Source: a virus
Length of the DNA: 64,000 bases
Reading direction: 5' to 3' (one strand)
Virus record (IMG/VR): IMGVR_UViG_3300042341_001202
Coordinates: 1 to 64,000 of that record
The notes beneath the pieces were generated by a model. The model saw only the letters and a program-made list of their open reading frames with translations. It was not told the origin of the DNA and searched no databases. The translations under genes were made by a program, and so were the position numbers. Of this stretch, positions 24,837-49,485 are shown in pieces (position 1 is the first letter of the stretch; the number at the start of each line of letters is the position of its first letter).

Positions 24837-24908
24837 GCGCATCTGGCTGAGAAGGGAAGCACACCCTTGATAAGGGTGGAGAGGCAGGGGCAGTACCTGC
24901 GGTGCGCA
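24837..24908 (+). tRNA. tRNA-Ile (GAT), non-canonical T-loop
   Basis: Acceptor GCGCATC/GGTGCGC, anticodon loop TTGATAA, T-stem GCAGG/CCTGC with loop GGCAGTA (G at 54 and 55 instead of T and pseudouridine). CCA encoded. Confidence 0.85.
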
Positions 24909-24926
24909 CCAAGTTAAGAATATAAT

Positions 24927-24998: not shown

Positions 24999-25006
24999 CC
25001 AATTGT

Positions 25007-25077
25007 AGGTCGCTGGTGAATTAGTATCACGTTGAGCTCCAACCTCAAAGTGCCGGGGGCGGTACCTGGGTGGCCTG
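25007..25077 (+). tRNA. tRNA-Trp (CCA), non-canonical T-loop
   Basis: Acceptor AGGTCGC/GTGGCCT with wobble pairs, anticodon loop CTCCAAC, discriminator G as in bacterial Trp tRNAs, T-loop GGCGGTA (G55), CCA encoded. Could also be the tRNA that reads the UGA in the release factor gene. Confidence 0.82.
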
Positions 25078-25858: not shown

Positions 25859-25931
25859 GGTGTCTAGAGTCAGCAAGTGTGGACGCGGGTCTGTGGAACC
25901 CGCCAGTCGGGGGCAGTACCCGATAGACACC
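25859..25931 (+). tRNA. tRNA-His (GTG), non-canonical T-loop
   Basis: Acceptor GTGTCTA/TAGACAC with the His-specific extra G at -1 facing C73, anticodon loop CTGTGGA, T-loop GGCAGTA (G55). CCA not fully encoded. Confidence 0.85.
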
Positions 25932-25945
25932 CATTAAATATTACT

Positions 25946-26431
25946 ATGAAAATAAGTGAAATCACCTTACCAAAAACGCGATGGGATGCACATGGTATTC
26001 TTGTAAAAGCTGGATATAAGAGATTGGGCAGCGGAGCATTTGCTTCTGTTTATGAAAAACCTGGCCGCCCATATGTTATAAAGTTGTTCGGTAGTGAAGA
26101 CAGTGCATATCGTGCATTTATTGATCTAGCAAGAAAACATCCAAACAAACATTTTCCAAAGTTTTTTGGTAAATTGATTCGCTTTCCTGATTTTTATGGT
26201 ATAAGAATGGAAAAACTCTCACCATATAAAGGAAACTCCAGGTATATCCGAGATTACATCTTGTTTGGAGAAGACGAGACAGAAGAAATCATGCATCGGC
26301 CAGAATTAGCAGAAGCATGCGATTTGATCACGACTTTGCTGGGAAAATACAATCTCGATATCAAGAATGATAATATTATGCAGAGAGGAAATACCCTTGT
26401 GTTTATTGACCCAGTTTGGGGCAAAGAATAA
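25946..26431 (+). CDS. Small protein-kinase-fold protein (161 aa)
   Basis: MKISEITLP start, then a glycine-loop-like L-G-S-G-A-F-A-S-V-Y, Y-V-I-K-L-F (lysine strand), G-I-R-M-E-K-L (hinge) and L-D-I-K-N-D-N-I-M-Q-R-G-N-T-L-V-F-I-D-P (catalytic-loop D-x-K-x-x-N and a metal-binding D-P). A minimal kinase-like fold; homologous to 46143-46721. The TAAATA box is 5 bases before the ATG. The N-terminus resembles capsid-targeting leaders, so it may be injected. Activity unproven. Confidence 0.72.
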   Translation: MKISEITLPKTRWDAHGILVKAGYKRLGSGAFASVYEKPGRPYVIKLFGSEDSAYRAFIDLARKHPNKHFPKFFGKLIRFPDFYGIRMEKLSPYKGNSRYIRDYILFGEDETEEIMHRPELAEACDLITTLLGKYNLDIKNDNIMQRGNTLVFIDPVWGKE

Positions 26432-26454: not shown

Positions 26455-26526
26455 TCCCAGGTTGAACCAGCGTTCCACCGGCCTTCATACGGCTGAGTGA
26501 AAAGGTGCAACTCCTTTGCCTGGGAC
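26455..26526 (+). tRNA. tRNA-Met (CAT), non-canonical T-loop
   Basis: Acceptor TCCCAGG/CCTGGGA, D-stem GAAC/GTTC, anticodon loop TTCATAC, T-stem AAAGG/CCTTT with loop TGCAACT (G55). No CCA. Confidence 0.78.
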
Positions 26527-26538
26527 TAAAAATATAAG

Positions 26539-26566
26539 TTGACTGACCCCTCAACGCACTTATAAT
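26539..26566 (+). promoter_or_regulatory. Promoter for tRNA-Asn and paired ncRNAs
   Basis: TTGACT, 16 bases, TATAAT. Confidence 0.7.
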
Positions 26567-26613
26567 CTGTGTATTGATAGAGAGCGGTGAGGTAGAGACA
26601 AAAATAGAGATTA

Positions 26614-26687
26614 TCCCGGACGGGCGCAAGGTGTGCCAGCAGATTGTTAATCTGTTCATCAGGAAAGTTCGATTCTTTCTCCGGGAG
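26614..26687 (+). tRNA. tRNA-Asn (GTT)
   Basis: Acceptor TCCCGGA/TCCGGGA, anticodon loop TTGTTAA, T-loop TTCGATT, discriminator G, CCA encoded. Confidence 0.92.
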
Positions 26688-26700
26688 CCAAAAACAAGAT

Positions 26701-26842
26701 AGGACTGACGATGGTCCTCCCTCAAGGGTTCGAGTACATGGTTGGGTTAGCGTCCAACTTGCAGCAATGTGCGAAATCACAGCGTCCTCTGGAGCTGGGT
26801 GTAATGCCCAGATAGGCAGCCGGTTAAGCCGAACAAGCCGGT
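26701..26842 (+). ncRNA. Structured RNA, copy A of a tandem pair
   Basis: Shares with copy B (26976-27120): AGGACT...ATGGTCCTCC hairpin, a hairpin after ACATG, CAATGT-x-x-GAAAT, a TGTAA-loop hairpin, and CAGCCGGTTAAG...AAGCCGG. The TGTAA hairpin stems differ between copies (CTGGG/CCCAG here, CTACG/CGTAG in B), which is compensatory change. No ORF. Not a tRNA; family not recognised. Confidence 0.6.
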
Positions 26843-26975
26843 ATATCATACGCAGACACGGCGCTGCATGGTTGCTACAAGGAACATTTTGAGAGAATGG
26901 TGTGTAGGGATAGACAAGCGCGACGCCCAGGGTTGGCCAACTTATGAGACGTGAACCGTTTCCGCACCAGCAAAT
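26843..26975. other. Spacer between the two ncRNA copies
   Basis: No gene found. Contains GTTGGCCAAC (perfect palindrome), a GAGACG/CGTTTC hairpin, and ends CGCACCA, so a degenerate tRNA is possible but could not be folded convincingly. Confidence 0.3.
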
Positions 26976-27120
26976 AGGACTGCCCATGGTCCTCCTGAAA
27001 AGGTTTGAGAACATGCCTGGAGTTTATCGCCTAGGTAGTAACAATGTTTGAAATTTACAGAGGTCTCTGGTGCTACGTGTAACTCGTAGATAGTCAGCCG
27101 GTTAAGACGAAAAGCCGGAG
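26976..27120 (+). ncRNA. Structured RNA, copy B of a tandem pair
   Basis: Same order of conserved blocks as copy A, with covarying hairpins. It is followed by about 70 bases that share only GAGACGTG with the region after A, then the late promoter at 27190. Confidence 0.6.
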
Positions 27121-27189
27121 TATTTGTTGTTACCTACTCTTTACTGGGGTGTCATTCAAGTCTAGAGACGTGTGCAGCCAGCGTCAAAC

Positions 27190-27197
27190 TATAAATA
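27190..27197 (+). promoter_or_regulatory. Late promoter TATAAATA
   Basis: Perfect late box 5 bases before ATG 27203, implying a leaderless late mRNA. Confidence 0.65.
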
Positions 27198-27202
27198 TCC
27201 TT

Positions 27203-27565
27203 ATGTTGATATTTGAAGTTTTGGCGCCAGCGAACACAAGACTGGAATTGGGAAAACAACTACAAAGTATTTTAGATGCTGTGCGTGGTCCAGAAAACAG
27301 CCGGGTCAAGTTAACCAAACATCTTCTAGATAAAATGTTACAATACAATATTCGTGCCAGTAATGTTGCAGCTATGGTAAAAAAAGCTTTTCGATTCCAC
27401 AATCGCCCGTTGGCTGAACTGGGAACAAACAACAGAATCATATTGCGGAAAACAGATAAAACTGGCTTGGTGGTAGTCAAAAACACACACGGTGATTATG
27501 TGCTGGCTACTATTGACCCCAATTTGTATAACGTTAAAAATCCCAGTCCAGAACTGCGTGTGTAG
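27203..27565 (+). CDS. Hypothetical late protein with packaged-protein-like start (120 aa)
   Basis: MLIFEVLAPANTRLELG, then a helical, basic domain and a C-terminal strand pair (G-L-V-V-V-K-N-T-H-G-D-Y-V-L-A-T-I-D). The M-x-x-x-E-[LV]-L start plus adjacent late box resemble capsid-packaged proteins in this window. No domain recognised. Confidence 0.6.
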   Translation: MLIFEVLAPANTRLELGKQLQSILDAVRGPENSRVKLTKHLLDKMLQYNIRASNVAAMVKKAFRFHNRPLAELGTNNRIILRKTDKTGLVVVKNTHGDYVLATIDPNLYNVKNPSPELRV

Positions 27566-27593
27566 TTGACAGTTTCCTTCTCTCATATATAAT
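27566..27593 (+). promoter_or_regulatory. Promoter of the small lipoprotein gene
   Basis: TTGACA, 16 bases, TATAAT, immediately after the previous stop codon. Confidence 0.8.
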
Positions 27594-27600
27594 TGAAAAT

Positions 27601-27766
27601 AGATAGATATTTGGCCTGCTTTATATGCAGTCCTACAGCAGGTATTGAGTGCTCTGCCCAAAAGCGTTGCACCGTACACAAATTCAAATGAATTTGTGGG
27701 TTTTGGGCAGGAAGGGGAGTGTGCAACCTCCCTGAGAGATTTTTGTTTGAGTGGAAGGAACTCAAA
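27601..27766 (+). promoter_or_regulatory. Long structured 5' leader with predicted pseudoknot
   Basis: CTGCCCAAAA (27654-27663) pairs with TTTTGGGCAG (27701-27710), enclosing ACAAATTC/GAATTTGT. GTTGCAC in the bulge pairs perfectly with GTGCAAC at about 27720-27726, forming a pseudoknot. TTGAGT/ACTCAA then encloses the AAGGA ribosome site. Could be a riboswitch or protein-binding leader. Confidence 0.55.
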
Positions 27767-27961: not shown

Positions 27962-28064
27962 ATTTAGGGCCATGTTGGACACCCCACTGGAAAACCCACA
28001 GTGGACGATGACGGGGTCTGGGATCATCTCCCAGGTGGTCCACTAAGTTTTCATTTACGAGTTA

Positions 28065-28136: not shown

Positions 28137-28151
28137 CCACTTTTTACCTAT

Positions 28152-28240
28152 GAGCAGCTTCCCCCACACCGGTCTGTAAAACCGACGCCTTTCAAAACAG
28201 TGGGGAATTGAGGCGAGGGGAGAGTTACCCTGGTTGCTCA
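28152..28240 (+). tRNA. tRNA-Tyr (GTA), atypical D region and variable arm
   Basis: Acceptor GAGCAGC/GTTGCTC, anticodon stem CGGT/ACCG with loop CTGTAAA, long variable arm (GCC...TCAA/TTGA...GGC), T-arm loop AGAGTTA (G55). No normal D-stem; instead TTCCCCCAC after the acceptor is complementary to GTGGGGAA in the variable-arm loop. No encoded CCA. Confidence 0.6.
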
Positions 28241-28324
28241 AAACTCTAAATAGCCTTGTAGATAAGGTATCTACAAACATTTGAAAAATCAAAGGAAACC
28301 TAAAATGCCAAGTGGCAGTATACA

Positions 28325-32392: not shown

Positions 32393-32998
32393 TTACCATC
32401 TTGCATTATCCTCAAATCCAGCATCTTCTAGTTCTTTTTGACAATCAAACATGGCACGTTTGCCTTGTCCTGCGTATTTGTTCAAGATTGTTTCAACAGT
32501 CGTGTGATTCATTGCTGACCGCAACGAGATACTTTTGGCTGCCAAACAACGGAGCAGTGGAAGAGTAGGCGTGTAAGGTATAGCCAAGTAATTGAGCTCT
32601 GAAGGCATACCTTGGAGTGAGGTTAATGGGTTGAGGTGACAACTAAAAAGATCACCAACACTGCTGGGAGCACCTTCCAGTGAAGTCAGTTGGTTGTTGA
32701 AGCATACGAAACTTCCAACCACATTCTTGGGTGCAGCTTTAAGTGAAATAAGTTGGTTACTTGAGCCTAAGAAACTTCCACCAACACTCTCTGGCGCCCC
32801 GTCCAGTGTGGTTAGTTGGTTGTAATCGCACTGGAAGTGTCCAAGAACACTCTTGAAACGCACAGGGAACTGGGGTAATTGTCTTTTAAGTATAACATTA
32901 CCCTGGCAAGTGATCAACCCCTCAGGATCTATTGTGACTTGGCCTGTTGTTTTGAAATTAGCTTTCAACAAAGCCATTACTTCTTTTTTGTCTACCAT
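32393..32998 (-). CDS. LRR-family paralog (201 aa), last of operon
   Basis: MVDKKEVMALLKANFKTTG head, a G-x-I-x-C-x-G-x-V strand, six LRR-like units (S-L-E-G-A-P-S-S-V-G-D-L-F-S-C-x-x-N-P-L-T), tail Q-G-K-R-A-M-F-D-C-Q-K-E-L-E-D-A-G-F ending in NARW. Closest in its head to the partial paralog at 1-125. Converges with the SleB gene. Confidence 0.88.
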   Translation of the reverse strand: MVDKKEVMALLKANFKTTGQVTIDPEGLITCQGNVILKRQLPQFPVRFKSVLGHFQCDYNQLTTLDGAPESVGGSFLGSSNQLISLKAAPKNVVGSFVCFNNQLTSLEGAPSSVGDLFSCHLNPLTSLQGMPSELNYLAIPYTPTLPLLRCLAAKSISLRSAMNHTTVETILNKYAGQGKRAMFDCQKELEDAGFEDNARW

Positions 32999-33744
32999 CT
33001 TGCATTCCCTTCAAATCCAGCATCTTCCAGTTCTTTTTGGCAGTCAAACATGGCACGTTTGCCTTGACCCATATACTTTTGCAGAATAGCCCGCACCTCG
33101 TGTGGCCATCCCATACCCGACCACAGTTTTTTAGCATTTAAACAACGCAAGAGCGGCAGAGTGGGGCTGTAGTCAATCCATAAAACCCTTACTTCAGTAG
33201 GCATTCCTTCAAGTGACTCTAGCTGATTACCCCATGCTCTCAACTCGCCAGTGATGGTTTTTGGTGCACCGTGTAGTGAGACTAGTTTGTTTTCCATGCA
33301 AAACAAATCATGCACTTTCTCAGGAACATGTTCCAGTGATGAGAGTTGATTTGTCATACAAGAGAAATTGGCACCAACTGATTTGGGACAGTGTTCAAGG
33401 CTTTCTATGTTGTTATTATCGCATTTGAAATCTCCGCCCACATGTTGAGGCGAACCCAACAAACTGGTGAGTTGGTTGTGGCCACACTTGAAATCTCTAC
33501 CTACCCAAGAGGGTGCGCCTTCTAGACTCACCAGATCGGTATGCTGTACAGCAAAATCGTAGCGTATTTTTCCAAACCTTACCCGCAAGGTTTTTATACC
33601 TGGCTTACCATCAAGGTAAGATTTCTCCTTGCTCTTGACACTGCCTGTGCAGGATATCAATCCTGTGTTGGGATCAACAGAGAGTTTACCTGTGTGAGAG
33701 TAATATTTGTCAAAAGTTTTTTTGATCCCGGCTAGATCTACCAT
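32992..33744 (-). CDS. LRR-family paralog (250 aa)
   Basis: Head MVDLAGIKKTFDKYYSHTG, then a longer than usual strand section and about seven repeats (x-H-N-Q-L-T-S-L-L-G-S-P-Q-H-V-G-G-D-F-K-C). Tail is the family type with MGQGKRAMFDCQKELEDAGF. Stop overlaps the next gene's ATG in ATGGTAG. Confidence 0.88.
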   Translation of the reverse strand: MVDLAGIKKTFDKYYSHTGKLSVDPNTGLISCTGSVKSKEKSYLDGKPGIKTLRVRFGKIRYDFAVQHTDLVSLEGAPSWVGRDFKCGHNQLTSLLGSPQHVGGDFKCDNNNIESLEHCPKSVGANFSCMTNQLSSLEHVPEKVHDLFCMENKLVSLHGAPKTITGELRAWGNQLESLEGMPTEVRVLWIDYSPTLPLLRCLNAKKLWSGMGWPHEVRAILQKYMGQGKRAMFDCQKELEDAGFEGNARW

Positions 33745-34355
33745 CGTGCATTTCCTTCAAATCCAGAGTCTTCCAAATCTTTTTGGCAGTCAAACATGGC
33801 AGCTTTGCCTTGACCTGCATATTTGTTCATGATTTCTTGAACCTTCTGGGGTGGCTCCGATTCATCAACCCTATGCATGAATACAATTTTTTTGGCAACC
33901 AATGCACGTAGCAAAGGCAAAGTGGGCGAATATTGTAACACTAGTCGCCCTAAACCTTCTTGCGGTATGCCTTCAAGACTTTCAAGTGGATTGCCCACAC
34001 AACTCAAAGATCCAAGAACTTTTTTGGGTGCACCTTGCAAGCTCTTGAGCTGGTTGAACCCACATAAGTAGTGTTCGCCAACAGCATCAGGACCGCCTTC
34101 AAGAGTTTGTAAATTGTTCTCAGTACAACGAAATTCATTGTAGACATATTTGGGAGATCCTTGAAGGCTTGTGAGCCCCATGCCCCCCACATCAAATCCT
34201 TCCACTTCATAAAAGCCAACTGGCAACTTCTTAACATGCAACATAAGCGTTACGTAACCTTTTGTGCTTATTGTTCCATCAGAATTGATTACAATGCTTT
34301 CATTACATTGAAAATAATCATCAAAAGTTTTTTTGATGTTATCAACGTCTACCAT
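33738..34355 (-). CDS. LRR-family paralog (205 aa)
   Basis: Head MVDVDNIKKTFDDYFQ, five repeats with L-Q-G-S-P and L-E-G-G-P turns, tail G-Q-G-K-A-A-M-F-D-C-Q-K-D-L-E-D-S-G-F (Ala in place of Arg). Overlapping stop/start with both neighbours. Confidence 0.88.
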   Translation of the reverse strand: MVDVDNIKKTFDDYFQCNESIVINSDGTISTKGYVTLMLHVKKLPVGFYEVEGFDVGGMGLTSLQGSPKYVYNEFRCTENNLQTLEGGPDAVGEHYLCGFNQLKSLQGAPKKVLGSLSCVGNPLESLEGIPQEGLGRLVLQYSPTLPLLRALVAKKIVFMHRVDESEPPQKVQEIMNKYAGQGKAAMFDCQKDLEDSGFEGNARW

Positions 34356-34987
34356 TTTGCATGATCCTCAAATCCAGCGTCTTCCAAATCTTTTTGGCAA
34401 TCAAACATGGCACGTTTGCCTTGGCCAGCATATTTGTTCAAAATTGTCTGCACTTTTCCCTTCTCCACAGTGTGAGTGTCGTCAGCAGGCTCTAAAAATA
34501 TATGCCTTGCTGCCAAGGTACGTAAGAGAGGCAAATGTGGTAGATACGGTAACCAAGCTGCATTTTCCACTTTCAACGGAAATCCATCCAAGCTTTTCAA
34601 CGGATTACCAATGCAATTGAAATTATTGGGTATCTGGACAGGTGCCCCCTTCAAATCAACAAGTTGATTATGGTCACAGTAGTAGTTCCAACCTACAATT
34701 TCTGGCCCCCCACTAAGGCTTTTGAGCATGTTACGTGAACAGTCAAAACTCACGCCCACTTCAGGGGGACAGCCTTCCAAGGTTACTAGTGCGTTCTCAT
34801 CTAACGATAGATTTTCAGTTACAGCTTTGAAGGCAACTGGCAGTTTTTCAAAACGTGTATAGTGGAGATTCAACAATTGAATATCGCCATTTACTGTTAC
34901 CAGTCCATCTGATGAAACTTTTGCACTGTTGTAGTCAAAGCTGAAATGGTCTTTCAATAACTGCAAGATTTCTCGTTTGTTTACCAT
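34349..34987 (-). CDS. LRR-family paralog (212 aa)
   Basis: Head MVNKREILQLLKDHFSFD, repeats with N-A-L-V-T-L-E-G-C-P-P-E-V-G and N-Q-L-V-D-L-K-G-A-P, tail ending DHAKW rather than NARW. Stop overlaps the next ATG. Confidence 0.88.
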   Translation of the reverse strand: MVNKREILQLLKDHFSFDYNSAKVSSDGLVTVNGDIQLLNLHYTRFEKLPVAFKAVTENLSLDENALVTLEGCPPEVGVSFDCSRNMLKSLSGGPEIVGWNYYCDHNQLVDLKGAPVQIPNNFNCIGNPLKSLDGFPLKVENAAWLPYLPHLPLLRTLAARHIFLEPADDTHTVEKGKVQTILNKYAGQGKRAMFDCQKDLEDAGFEDHAKW

Positions 34988-35640
34988 CTGGCGTTGTCCT
35001 CAAATCCGGCATCTTCCAATTCTTTTTGACAATCAAACATAACACGTTTTCCTTGCCCCAAATATTTTTCCAAAATGTATAACACCTTCCAGGCATCGCT
35101 GCCCTCGCTTTGATACGGCCAAAAAATAATCTCTGGTGCCACCAATGTGCGCAACAAAGGCAGCTGAGTATCATAAGTGATATACAAACTATCTCCAATT
35201 TTTTGAGGAAAGCCCTGCAAGCTCTCTAGAGGATTGGCTGAACAATTGAACACACTGGGGATTTCTCTAGGTGCCCCTTCCAAATCCTTCAATTGATTTT
35301 TACTGCAATTATAACTGCCGCCAAATGTGGGTGTTTGTGTCGTGCCTATTGTTTTGGGTCCAAACTTCAAACTTTTGAGTTCATTATTGTCACACTCAAA
35401 ATTCTTACCAACAGTTTCTGGACAACCCTCTAGTGTCTTGAGTTGGTTGATGCTGAGCATCATACTGCCTTCAATGTGAGAAAATTTCACCGGTAGTTCT
35501 TGAAAAGAACTGTGAAATTTGTTGTATAACACAACGTCTCCCATGACACTGACTTTGCCAGCTGGATCAACAATGGGGTCCCCATCTACCATGAAATGTT
35601 GAGTTAGCGTGTTCAACACATGCTGTTTGACGTCTACCAT
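34981..35640 (-). CDS. LRR-family paralog (219 aa)
   Basis: Head MVDVKQHVLNTLTQHF, a strand G-K-V-S-V-M-G-D-V-V-L, repeats with N-Q-L-K-T-L-E-G-C-P-E-T-V-G-K-N-F-E-C, and a small insertion (T-T-Q-T-P-T-F-G-G) in one repeat. Tail has V-M-F-D-C-Q-K-E-L. Confidence 0.88.
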   Translation of the reverse strand: MVDVKQHVLNTLTQHFMVDGDPIVDPAGKVSVMGDVVLYNKFHSSFQELPVKFSHIEGSMMLSINQLKTLEGCPETVGKNFECDNNELKSLKFGPKTIGTTQTPTFGGSYNCSKNQLKDLEGAPREIPSVFNCSANPLESLQGFPQKIGDSLYITYDTQLPLLRTLVAPEIIFWPYQSEGSDAWKVLYILEKYLGQGKRVMFDCQKELEDAGFEDNARW

Positions 35641-36239
35641 CTTGCATTTCCTTCAAAGCCCGCATCTTCCAGTTCTTTTTGGCAATCAAACAGGGCACGT
35701 TTGCCTTGTCCTGCGTATTTGTAAAATATTCCTTCAATTGTTAGAAGTTTGCTTTGCATAACATTGTGGGCATACAGCATTAGGCCCTGTTGGCAGTTCA
35801 AAGCTCGAAGCAAGGGCAATTTATTGTGATAATTTATGCTCAAGTGTTGGCCTACTCGTTGGGGAAACCCAGCAAGACTCAACACTGGAACCTCTTGTCT
35901 AAATCCCACACGACCTGAAACCTCAAGGGGCCCACCTGTCATGTCTTTCAAAGGATTTTTGTTGGCAGTGAATCTGCCTCCCACAATCTGCGGACAACCT
36001 TCAAGACTGGAGAGTCCACATCTGTCTAAAATCAAACTGGCATGGCAAACGCCAAATTTTACAGGCAGTTTTCCATTGGGAAACGGTCCTTGTATGGCCA
36101 AGAGCACACCATATCCTGGTGTGATCTCCTGCACATTTACTATACCACTATCTTCAATTTGAAAGCGCACCCGGTTGTCTGCCTCACCATTACGAAAATA
36201 AGTGTTCAACATGTGCTGAACTTCTTGTTTGTCTACCAT
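35634..36239 (-). CDS. LRR-family paralog (201 aa)
   Basis: Head MVDKQEVQHMLNTYF. The second half of the N-terminal domain differs (I-T-P-G-Y-G-V-L-L-A-I-Q-G-P-F-P) and is shared with the next gene at 36233, so these two form a subfamily. Tail R-A-L-F-D-C-Q-K-E-L-E-D-A-G-F. Confidence 0.88.
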   Translation of the reverse strand: MVDKQEVQHMLNTYFRNGEADNRVRFQIEDSGIVNVQEITPGYGVLLAIQGPFPNGKLPVKFGVCHASLILDRCGLSSLEGCPQIVGGRFTANKNPLKDMTGGPLEVSGRVGFRQEVPVLSLAGFPQRVGQHLSINYHNKLPLLRALNCQQGLMLYAHNVMQSKLLTIEGIFYKYAGQGKRALFDCQKELEDAGFEGNARW

Positions 36240-36832
36240 CTTGCATTTCCTTCAAATCCAGCATCCTCTAGATCTTTTTGACATTCAAACAGGGCACGCT
36301 TGCCCTGTCCTTTGTATTTTTCAATTATTTCTTCAATGGGATTAGTGTTAAAGGATGATGAGCTCAATATTACACCATCTTGGCAAGCTAACGTGCGCAG
36401 CAGCGGCAACTTGTCATGGTAAGGCAGTTTAGCATAGTCACCCACCCTATCAGGAAAACCATCCAAACTCTCTAATAGGTTTTTCTGCATCCCAAGCCAA
36501 AACCTACCTGTGACTTCTTTGGGCCCACCCTTGAAATTTTTCAATTGATTGCCAAGTGCAACAAAATTGCCTTGGATTACAGGGGGACAACCAACCAAGT
36601 CCACGATTTGATTCCGGTCCAATTTTAAGCTGGCTTTGAACAAGCCAAATCTCACAGGCAACTGACCTCCAGGGAAGGGTTTGTCCTTAATAGTGCGGAG
36701 ATGGCCGCGACCAGGAGTCAGCTCAAGCACATTAACCAAGCCCTCAGGACCTATGTCAAATTTCACAGCGTCATTTGGCTCAAAGAAAAAATACTCTGCC
36801 AACAGTTCCAAAATTTCCCTTTTGTCTACCAT
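36233..36832 (-). CDS. LRR-family paralog (199 aa)
   Basis: Head MVDKREILELLAEYFFFE, subfamily strand L-T-P-G-R-G-H-L-R-T-I-K as in 35634-36239, four repeats, tail R-A-L-F-E-C-Q-K-D-L-E-D-A-G-F (Glu for Asp). Confidence 0.88.
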   Translation of the reverse strand: MVDKREILELLAEYFFFEPNDAVKFDIGPEGLVNVLELTPGRGHLRTIKDKPFPGGQLPVRFGLFKASLKLDRNQIVDLVGCPPVIQGNFVALGNQLKNFKGGPKEVTGRFWLGMQKNLLESLDGFPDRVGDYAKLPYHDKLPLLRTLACQDGVILSSSSFNTNPIEEIIEKYKGQGKRALFECQKDLEDAGFEGNARW

Positions 36833-37647
36833 TTGGCGTTCCTTTCAAATCCTGCGTCTTCCAATTCTTTTTGACAGTCAAACAGGGCTCGTTTGCCCTG
36901 GCCTGCGTATTTTTTCAAGATGGTTTCCACTTGAATATACTTGCCCCACAGCACAGGCCAAAAATTGACCTTCTGGGCTACCAAAAGCCGTAACAAGGGC
37001 AAATCGGATTTGTAACTGACTTCAATCAAATCAGGAGTTTGGGAGCCTAACCCCTCAAGATTTTCCAAGGGATTGTGATCAAAAATAAACTGCTTGGAAA
37101 TATTCAAAGAGGCACCTTTGAGTGTTGTGAGCTTGTTGTTGGTTGCCCAAAAATATTCCACGGTCTGTGGTGCGTCTTGAAGATCAGTCAAGAGATTTTT
37201 ACTGACATCAAACATACCACCTATTTGCAGGGGAGCACCTCGCAAACTCACTAAATTGTTGTTGTATGCAATGTATTCTTGTGTAAAGTCTCGTGGACTT
37301 CCCAACAAATCTGAGAGTTTATTATTCTGGCAAGAATATTGTCCTTTTACTGTTTTTGGGCCACCAACCAAGCTGATCAACTGGTTTTCACTGCAATCAA
37401 ATGTGTCCAAGACAGTGTGAGGACAGCCTTCAAGTGTTTCCAACTTGTTCCTGTGACAGAGAAAATTGCCTTCCACCACTCCAAATCTCACAGGCAATCG
37501 AGAGGTCTCTTTGCTCAACAAAATTGATCCATGAGCATCTACAACACCTGTATCATGTATAGTGAAAAGGGTACTTTCCCAACCAAAGTATTCATTCAGT
37601 AACTGACGAACAGTTGTTTTGTCTTGTGGGAATTCCTGGTTTACCAT
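36826..37647 (-). CDS. LRR-family paralog (273 aa), longest
   Basis: Head MVNQEFPQDKTTVRQLLNEYF, then eight or nine repeats, the most of any member, with the clearest spacing of about 20 residues (N-K-L-E-T-L-E-G-C-P-H-T-V-L-D-T-F-D-C). Tail ends RNAKW. Confidence 0.88.
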   Translation of the reverse strand: MVNQEFPQDKTTVRQLLNEYFGWESTLFTIHDTGVVDAHGSILLSKETSRLPVRFGVVEGNFLCHRNKLETLEGCPHTVLDTFDCSENQLISLVGGPKTVKGQYSCQNNKLSDLLGSPRDFTQEYIAYNNNLVSLRGAPLQIGGMFDVSKNLLTDLQDAPQTVEYFWATNNKLTTLKGASLNISKQFIFDHNPLENLEGLGSQTPDLIEVSYKSDLPLLRLLVAQKVNFWPVLWGKYIQVETILKKYAGQGKRALFDCQKELEDAGFERNAKW

Positions 37648-38297
37648 CGTGCATTTTCCTCAAAACCCGCATCTTCCAATTCTTTTTGGCAGTCAAACAA
37701 AGCACGTTTGCCTTTGCCTGCATAACTGTTCAAAATTTTATGTAACTGCTGGAATTTTCCTTCGTTTCCTCGCTTATATTGCATAGGCACAATAAGGTCC
37801 ACATGCAAGGCTCCTAATGTTCTCAACAGTGGTATTGTGGGACTATACGTCAATGTTACCCAAGCAATGCTCTTGGGCAAGTGGTCAAGTGACTCCAGTG
37901 GGTTGTCTTGAATCTCCAGATTGTCAGATACTGTGTCCGGCAAACCTTGTAGAGAAGTCAACTTGTTGCTATTGAGAAGGATACTGCCACTGACCCAATG
38001 CGGAAAACTGGTTAACTTTGATAGCAAGTTGAAGCTGGCGTCGAAATCTCCTTCAATCTCAAATGGGCATCCTTCCAAGGTTCTTAGATTCTTGTTGTTG
38101 CAGGTGAAGGTACCATGCACCTTACTGAAACGCAAAGGTAACTGAGATTGAGGCCGCGTTAGGTGTAAGTCACCAGCCACAACAATCTTACCATCTTGAT
38201 CAAACATCCAACCAGCTGGATATAAGGCATTGCTCTCTATCTTGAAGTTCTGGCTCAAGATGGTTTTGGTTTGTTCATATTCCACATCACTTACCAT
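37641..38297 (-). CDS. LRR-family paralog (218 aa)
   Basis: Head MVSDVEYEQTKTILSQNF, repeats N-L-R-T-L-E-G-C-P-F-E-I-E-G-D-F and N-K-L-T-S-L-Q-G-L-P, tail R-A-L-F-D-C-Q-K-E-L-E-D-A-G-F ending ENARW. Confidence 0.88.
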   Translation of the reverse strand: MVSDVEYEQTKTILSQNFKIESNALYPAGWMFDQDGKIVVAGDLHLTRPQSQLPLRFSKVHGTFTCNNKNLRTLEGCPFEIEGDFDASFNLLSKLTSFPHWVSGSILLNSNKLTSLQGLPDTVSDNLEIQDNPLESLDHLPKSIAWVTLTYSPTIPLLRTLGALHVDLIVPMQYKRGNEGKFQQLHKILNSYAGKGKRALFDCQKELEDAGFEENARW

Positions 38298-47268: not shown

Positions 47269-47339
47269 GGCCCCATAAGACAAAGGTAGTCAGCTGGACT
47301 CTAAATCCAGTGGTGTGAGTTCAAATCTCACTGGTGCCA
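47269..47339 (+). tRNA. Amber suppressor tRNA (anticodon CTA)
   Basis: Acceptor GGCCCCA/TGGTGCC (one C-T mismatch), anticodon stem CTGGA/TCCAG with loop CTCTAAA, so anticodon CUA reads UAG. T-loop TTCAAAT, discriminator A, CCA encoded. Own promoter and terminator. Charging amino acid cannot be read from sequence. Confidence 0.83.
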
Positions 47340-47410
47340 CCAAAAGTTTACAAAAAGGTTTTCAAACAAAATAATGACCTAGGTTTCACACAAGTTTGAA
47401 CTTTTCTTTG

Positions 47411-48455: not shown

Positions 48456-48519
48456 AGAGTGTGCGATTCTTGGAGAGTGATGGGTTCAAAAGATTCACAT
48501 TCTGTTGCTTAAATAGAGT

Positions 48520-49485
48520 ATGCTAATACGTGAACTTTTGAGTGAAGTCAAGCGGCCTCTAACCGTAGTTGACCTTCGATATGAAGAACCCGCTGACCCC
48601 AAGAAAGTGCTAAAGCACTGGGGGAGTGAGCCCAAAGAGTATATTCATCCTCAAGATGGATATTTTTGGCACTGGAGTGAAGGCAAACTTTTGCTACACA
48701 GTGAGAGAAATGAGCACTACAGTTGGAAAATGACCCAATTGTTGGGCTTGCGCGACTCAACGGAAACAAAGCAGCCTTTGGGAGAACTTTGGAACACCTT
48801 AAATGGCAAGGTGGATTTCAATAATCGTACAGTTACCATACTCAAGGAATATACAAATAACACGTCACGCCAAAGAGCCATCAGCAATCTTAAAGAATTA
48901 CAAGATGCATTCATAGTTTTGATGCGTTATGGTTTAGGTGAAGATTTCAAGGTAGCTGGAGTTCCATCACATGTTGCTAAAACTGTAGGCAAAGTATTGG
49001 CCCAAACAGATCCCACTAGTATTGTGCTCAGAGGAGACTCTCCTGTCATGTATCACGGCACAAGTAGTGACAGGTGGGAACAAATACAACAAAAGGGGTT
49101 GCAGCCAGGACACACTGGAGAAGCTTATGCGGATCTGCGTCCTGGATATAGTGAACACAATGTTTATTTGGCAACTAATCCCAAAGTAGCAGAGTTTTAT
49201 GCCAAAAGACAGGCCAAGAAAGATGGCAGTTCGTCAGGTGTAATACTTAAAGTAACAGTGCCTGATCCTGCTAGGTTACTGAGCGATGATGAGTGGATCC
49301 CTTCTGGCCAATGGAGCGAGAAAGAACAAAGAGTGATACCGCCTAGCCCCAGTGCTCAATTGCGGCGAGGAGGCAGTCAACAAGCCTTACGCAGCAGTGG
49401 GAGGCAGTTGGGCAGTTTTGCATACCGCGGGCGTATTCCCAGTTCAAGAATTGAACTTGTGCGGAATGTGGCTGTGAAAAGTTAG
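48520..49485 (+). CDS. ART/Tpt1-fold protein with capsid-targeting-like leader
   Basis: 321 residues. Leader MLIRELLSEVKR has an L-x-E processing candidate (L-S-E), like the T4 Alt leader. The C-terminal part (about 175-250) has M-Y-H-G-T-S-S-D-R-W, L-x-x-G-L-Q-P-G, N-V-Y-L-A-T and V-I-L-K-V-T-V, the H-Y-type NAD-binding core of diphtheria-toxin/Tpt1-like ADP-ribosyl transferases. A TAAATA box lies 4 bases before ATG. Likely ejected with DNA to modify a host target or RNA; a KptA-like role is the alternative. Confidence 0.75.
   Translation: MLIRELLSEVKRPLTVVDLRYEEPADPKKVLKHWGSEPKEYIHPQDGYFWHWSEGKLLLHSERNEHYSWKMTQLLGLRDSTETKQPLGELWNTLNGKVDFNNRTVTILKEYTNNTSRQRAISNLKELQDAFIVLMRYGLGEDFKVAGVPSHVAKTVGKVLAQTDPTSIVLRGDSPVMYHGTSSDRWEQIQQKGLQPGHTGEAYADLRPGYSEHNVYLATNPKVAEFYAKRQAKKDGSSSGVILKVTVPDPARLLSDDEWIPSGQWSEKEQRVIPPSPSAQLRRGGSQQALRSSGRQLGSFAYRGRIPSSRIELVRNVAVKS

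Follow-up and report, generated by a model that had tools for sequence, protein, structure and literature searches.

The RNA Locus and Its Neighbors

Two copies of a structured RNA element, designated A and B, occupy the interval between the end of a tRNA-Asn gene (position 26690) and a protein gene starting at 27203 in the window, the whole 64-kb stretch of DNA analyzed here, which is the first part of a 148-kb virus record. The conserved core of A lies at 26699–26850 and that of B at 26974–27124, both on the plus strand; the cores were delimited by alignment and folding, and matched the covariance models built from them (R1 and R2) with 179 and 177 bits, respectively. Upstream of A, a promoter scan located a sigma-70-type promoter-like site on the plus strand at 26539–26566 (TTGACT-16-TATAAT, 11/12), which ranked third among the 20 such sites found, compared with 8.3 ± 2.9 in shuffles. 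The tRNA-Asn gene (GTT anticodon, 26614–26690, plus strand), called by ARAGORN and showing a cloverleaf fold with z = −3.2, ends in CCA 8 nt upstream of A. Downstream of B, a box scan identified a T4-type late promoter box, TATAAATA, on the plus strand at 27190–27197, 5 nt upstream of the ATG of the next gene (27203–27565, plus strand). This open reading frame encodes a 120-aa protein starting with MLIFEVL that was seen only in this phage; the product had no Pfam or PHROG match, and its predicted structure was too poor for comparison (mean pLDDT 47.5). The end of B and this ATG, both on the plus strand, are separated by ~80 nt in which no terminator was found.

A and B share 74–75% identity (BLASTN: 111 of 151 positions identical, E = 1e-24), and 37 of the 148 ungapped aligned columns differ. 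The sequence blocks that had originally been reported to occur twice in the same order at this place were recovered in the two cores. Each core is ~150 nt long, or 215–275 nt when the 3′ parts, which match weakly, are counted. The spacer between the cores (26851–26973, plus strand) may include such a part for A: it contains a GAGACGUG block that is found again after B, and these blocks could conceivably close a 3′ part of each element. The reading frames of the two copies are disrupted by 2-nt and 1-nt indels and by stops, leaving no common frame, which rules out a protein-coding origin; A and B are paralogues, and neither is a protein gene. A covariance search of a 309-kb contig of the same phage revealed no third copy, and a search of the tRNA region with the filters off yielded no further copy, the next-best match being partial and scoring 10 bits.

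The same region was present on three further virus contigs (309,756, 180,697, and 119,063 bases) with 100% identity over every compared stretch; thus, these contigs are the same phage as the window. Judged from its sequence, the source virus is a T4-like jumbo phage. It encodes a T4-type clamp loader that has its closest counterparts among isolates in Pseudomonas phages of the PA5oct group (47% identity), and the late-promoter box is enriched in the window (8 found vs. 1.2 expected). At four places, a late box of the form (N)TAAATA ends a few nucleotides before an ATG (25934–25949, 27190–27203, 48509–48520, and, on the minus strand, 46732–46721); the products start with MKISEI, MLIFEVL, MLIRELL, and MQLAEL, respectively, and no obvious Shine-Dalgarno site was seen. 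These genes may possibly be expressed from leaderless late mRNAs for capsid-targeted proteins.

The tRNA array comprises 18 tRNAs in the window as called by ARAGORN, several divergent tRNA-like elements, and one skipping-rope RNA; the tRNA setting in which the two RNAs had been placed by the original prediction is therefore real. The skipping-rope RNA (RF02924, 25102–25208, 44.5 bits) carries extra sequence in its middle hairpin relative to the model. Five tRNA-like elements were missed by ARAGORN: a probable Ile (GAT) at 24838–24911, a probable Trp (CCA) at 25006–25075, a probable His (GTG) at 25859–25932, a cloverleaf with a CAT anticodon at 26455–26530 (z = −2.9), and a Tyr-like element (GTA) at 28150–28241 with possible pairing between the D region and the variable region. 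Several of them have the T-loop GGCRGUA in place of UUCRANN, and the T arms of two gave weak matches to the alpha-tmRNA model. The stretch 27966–28048 combines a 7-bp acceptor-like stem (GGGCCAU/GUGGUCC) with a T-arm-like hairpin (CUGGG-AUCAUCU-CCCAG), without a normal anticodon loop; it may be another tRNA-like RNA, but its folding energy does not favor this. A tRNA with a CTA anticodon, of the amber suppressor type and called as tRNA-Pyl, lies at 47269–47342; reading TAG as sense raised the coverage by open reading frames only from 83% to 88%, a gain that does not demonstrate recoding.

Other features were also observed. The product of 25949–26428 is similar to the phage protein-kinase family phrog_15752 (E = 9e-10), described as a host transcription inhibitor. 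A perfect sigma-70-like promoter (27566–27593, 12/12) is followed by a structured stretch at 27600–27745, with a long hairpin (cugcccaaaa...uuuugggcag) and a possible pseudoknot (GUUGCAC/GUGCAAC), upstream of a small lipoprotein-like open reading frame. On the minus strand, nine tandem genes of ~200–270 codons with MVD, MVN, or MVS starts form an apparently paralogous array at 32393–38297.

A Common Fold with Compensatory Changes

A single fold of seven helices (H1–H7) and 35 base pairs describes both RNAs, and all helices form in both copies. Between the two sequences available for comparison, which are paralogues of one genome, six pairs had both bases exchanged and two had one base exchanged, and 0 of the 35 were broken. 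RNAalifold, which picks the helices unaided, gave a consensus energy of −37.3 kcal/mol, compared with −17.5 ± 3.4 kcal/mol in 1000 column shuffles that preserved where the alignment is conserved and where it differs (z = −5.8; 0/1000 as low), and the SCI of the A/B alignment was 0.90 versus 0.44 in the column shuffles. When random divergence of A to the level of B was simulated, a mean of 10.5 of the 35 pairs were broken, and none of 100,000 trials left every pair intact; the shuffle test is the cleaner of the two, because the simulated structure was chosen with both copies known. Shifting the pairing partners by 1–3 columns made all double changes vanish. The folding energies of the single sequences were ordinary (z = +0.3 for A and −0.8 for B); therefore, the evidence for the fold is comparative, not energetic. 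The compensatory changes in six pairs mean that the fold of A and B has been under selection rather than in decay, and the original view of this locus as a tandem of homologous structured RNAs with covariation was borne out.

Coordinates of the helices, all on the plus strand, are given for A unless stated otherwise. H1 (26701–26718) is an AGGACU/GGUCCU hairpin with a stem identical in A and B, and H2 (26719–26728) reads CCC-UCAA-GGG in A and CCU-GAAA-AGG in B, with one compensatory pair (C-G to U-A). H3 (GUACAU/AUGUGC) encloses H4 (GGUUGG/CCAACU) in an arm at 26734–26772 that has, in A, a 7-nt bulge on its 3′ side; three pairs are compensatory here, namely U-G to A-U in H3, and G-C to C-G and U-A to C-G in H4. 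H5 (CAG/CUG, 26780–26791), with three invariant pairs, is a weakly indicated and uncertain helix. H6 is a hairpin that reads CUGGG-UGUAAUG-CCCAG in A (26795–26811) and CUACG-UGUAACU-CGUAG in B (27073–27089), with two compensatory pairs; the change from CTGGG/CCCAG to CTACG/CGTAG reported at the outset is thus genuine, and the other helices added further ones. Its 7-nt loop, UGUAAUG or UGUAACU, appears to be T-loop-like. H7 is a CCGGUU/AGCCGG hairpin (26820–26841 in A and 27098–27118 in B), again with an identical stem.

H2, H3, H4, and H6 are well supported by compensatory changes, whereas the invariant H1, H5, and H7 have no covariation support because only two sequences exist to compare. The paired bases of H1 and H7 are identical throughout (24/24) in an alignment that differs in a quarter of its columns. 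Such invariance, while other stems drift, would be expected if H1 and H7 were read as sequence; it is consistent either with recognition at the level of sequence or with local gene conversion. An extra helix below H3 (UUYG/YGAA) is compatible with both copies and was predicted at only 15% in A and 2% in B; we do not claim it.

Searches for Related RNAs

The original prediction could not place the two RNAs in a known family and named a match to one as a result that would speak against it; such a match was looked for and not found. Searches of the A and B cores against Rfam 15 gave no family match even at E = 10, and the only matches with E up to 10 across 26530–27230 were two chance ones that lay outside the structured cores. 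The GOLLD and ROOL models did not match A or B, nor did RF02924, which recovered the true skipping-rope member upstream. No ARAGORN or Rfam match to tRNA or tmRNA was obtained on the two copies, the T-arm-like hairpin being the sole resemblance, and the group I intron models of Rfam found nothing in them at E up to 10. The hammerhead motif CUGANGA is absent from B, and no Rfam ribozyme model matched either copy.

Relatives were also sought with the two covariance models, R1 and R2, the first of which had H7 shifted and the second of which placed it right, and with exact sequence patterns. Patterns taken from the 3′ hairpin, the T-loop joiner, and the GAAAU-CUCUGG block, which would miss relatives with altered blocks, were run on 2.9 million viral contigs and recovered the same phage only, plus chance matches (R2 ≤ 9 bits). 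The best of the latter (contig L093, 4415–4482) was rejected, being isolated, on a contig without tRNAs, and lacking the rest of the structure. One exact pattern gave two matches in species-representative genomes, each to a single hairpin only, and blastn against isolated phages returned nothing related to A or B. Covariance searches of ~50 related or jumbo phage records, many of which are fragments and may lack the region, gave no match; these records, reached via the clamp loader, include PA5oct, Atu_ph07, XacN1, Phosso, and Serratia phage BF. The proteins encoded by neighboring genes (25949, 27203, and 29318) likewise were seen only in the same phage. In these records and the contig of the phage itself, the covariance model that had been suggested as a check found the two copies themselves as the only relatives. 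Taken together, these searches suggest that A and B very likely represent a new RNA family, of a known general kind, with two members in one phage.

Possible Roles of the Two RNAs

We propose, with a probability of roughly 0.6, that A and B are paralogous stable noncoding RNAs that are cut from a tRNA transcript, fold on their own, and act in trans. The promoter-like site at 26539–26566 likely drives a transcript covering tRNA-Asn, A, and B; both RNAs would probably be made within this tRNA-Asn precursor, probably be released by host tRNA-processing nucleases, and probably persist as stable folded RNAs of ~150 nt. Each would present the two hairpins H1 and H2, the long arm of H3 and H4 with its bulge, the T-loop-like H6, and the 3′ hairpin H7. 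Our guess is that the partner of such an RNA is either an RNA-binding protein, from host or phage, or the translation machinery, contacted via the invariant parts, with H1, H7, the GAAAU and GAUAG-CAG joiners, and the UGUAA loop as candidates; having two genes might then raise the dose or supply the ligand in two versions. A bolder reading, which we regard as rather doubtful, is that A and B are the founders of a new class of phage RNA, assembled as a particle of two subunits, which during infection targets a host factor that recognizes tRNA or ribosomes, either by mimicry or as a sponge; the identical strands of H1 and H7 and the T-loop-like hairpin would allow A-B pairing or docking resembling that at the tRNA elbow.

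The short, terminator-free distance from B to the gene at 27203 could instead mean that the two copies regulate in cis as a tandem element, for instance a tandem riboswitch, an attenuator, or a signal for antitermination, either in the leader of this gene or in the tRNA operon; tandem homologous aptamers, for example the tandem glycine riboswitch, do exist in bacteria. However, because the late box sits 5 nt before the ATG, late transcription of 27203 would begin no earlier than the start codon and leave out A and B, which makes a leader role less likely; early read-through from A and B into this gene is possible. A tRNA lies directly upstream of A, no alternative terminator helix was seen, and no cis-regulatory family of Rfam matched the two copies; we consider this explanation unlikely. 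The promoter box of its own that 27203 possesses also argues against a type III-like toxin-antitoxin pair in which A and B would be the RNA part and the 120-aa product the toxin. Two RNA repeats immediately upstream of a small gene without a known family would suit such a pair; however, the known type III systems combine short near-identical RNA repeats with a ToxN-like endoribonuclease, whereas A and B are ~150 nt long and 75% identical, and the 27203 product matched no toxin in Pfam or PHROG. We hold this to be highly improbable.

The 5-bp stem and 7-nt loop (UGUAAYK) of H6 resemble a T arm, and the same region contains divergent tRNA-like elements missed by ARAGORN; A and B might accordingly be genes for tRNAs or tRNA-like RNAs that have decayed or been strongly remodeled, or remnants of introns, kept as by-products of the array. 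Against this stand the absence of any acceptor stem, anticodon arm, or CCA end that can be drawn for A or B, the failure of the tRNA, tmRNA, and group I intron models to match them even at E = 10, and the selection on the fold indicated by the six compensated pairs, and we judge such an origin quite improbable. Small self-cleaving ribozymes, or precursors of these, are scarcely credible: A contains CUGACGA and GAAA, as in the hammerhead core, but this motif of A falls inside hairpin H1, B has CUGCCCA at that place, and the ribozyme models of Rfam were silent. We thus favor stable RNAs acting in trans. Being a paralogous pair in one genome, A and B provide evidence from covariation without outside relatives, and they supply a defined structure together with ready variants, A versus B, for a test of function.

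Comparison with Known Phage RNAs

Phage tRNA regions have been known to carry stable RNAs since rnaC and rnaD of T4, followed later by GOLLD, ROOL, and skipping-rope RNA, and the functions of these RNAs are largely unknown. Such RNAs are easily overlooked, since they change rapidly in evolution and are passed over by gene callers. If comparison within genomes reveals more of them, phage noncoding RNA has been under-counted.

GOLLD and ROOL are phage noncoding RNAs of unknown function that often lie near tRNA islands (PMC12286853; PMC7567579), and many GOLLD members exceed 800 nt (PMC12286853). They share the phage tRNA-region setting with A and B but are several times longer and have an elaborate fold; the likeness to large phage RNAs drawn in the original prediction therefore holds for the tRNA neighborhood but does not extend to size, A and B measuring ~150 nt each, or 215–275 nt with the 3′ parts. 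The skipping-rope RNA is a small RNA with a true member in the same tRNA region 1.5 kb upstream; however, its fold, three hairpins inside an outer closing stem, is unlike that of A and B.

In the T4 record, rnaC (139 nt) and rnaD (119 nt) are annotated as small stable RNAs directly after tRNA-Arg. Homology with A and B was rejected, since no sequence similarity was detected and neither R1 nor R2 matched in the T4 record, the best R1 score over rnaC being 2.7 bits (E = 2). Moreover, rnaC and rnaD fold unlike each other, whereas A and B are paralogues with one fold. The T4 pair (species 1 and species 2) nevertheless likewise consists of two RNAs of ~120–140 nt lying side by side and adjoining a tRNA gene, and rnaC has a T-arm-like hairpin near its 3′ end, as A and B have in H6. 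A and B resemble rnaC and rnaD in placement and size only.
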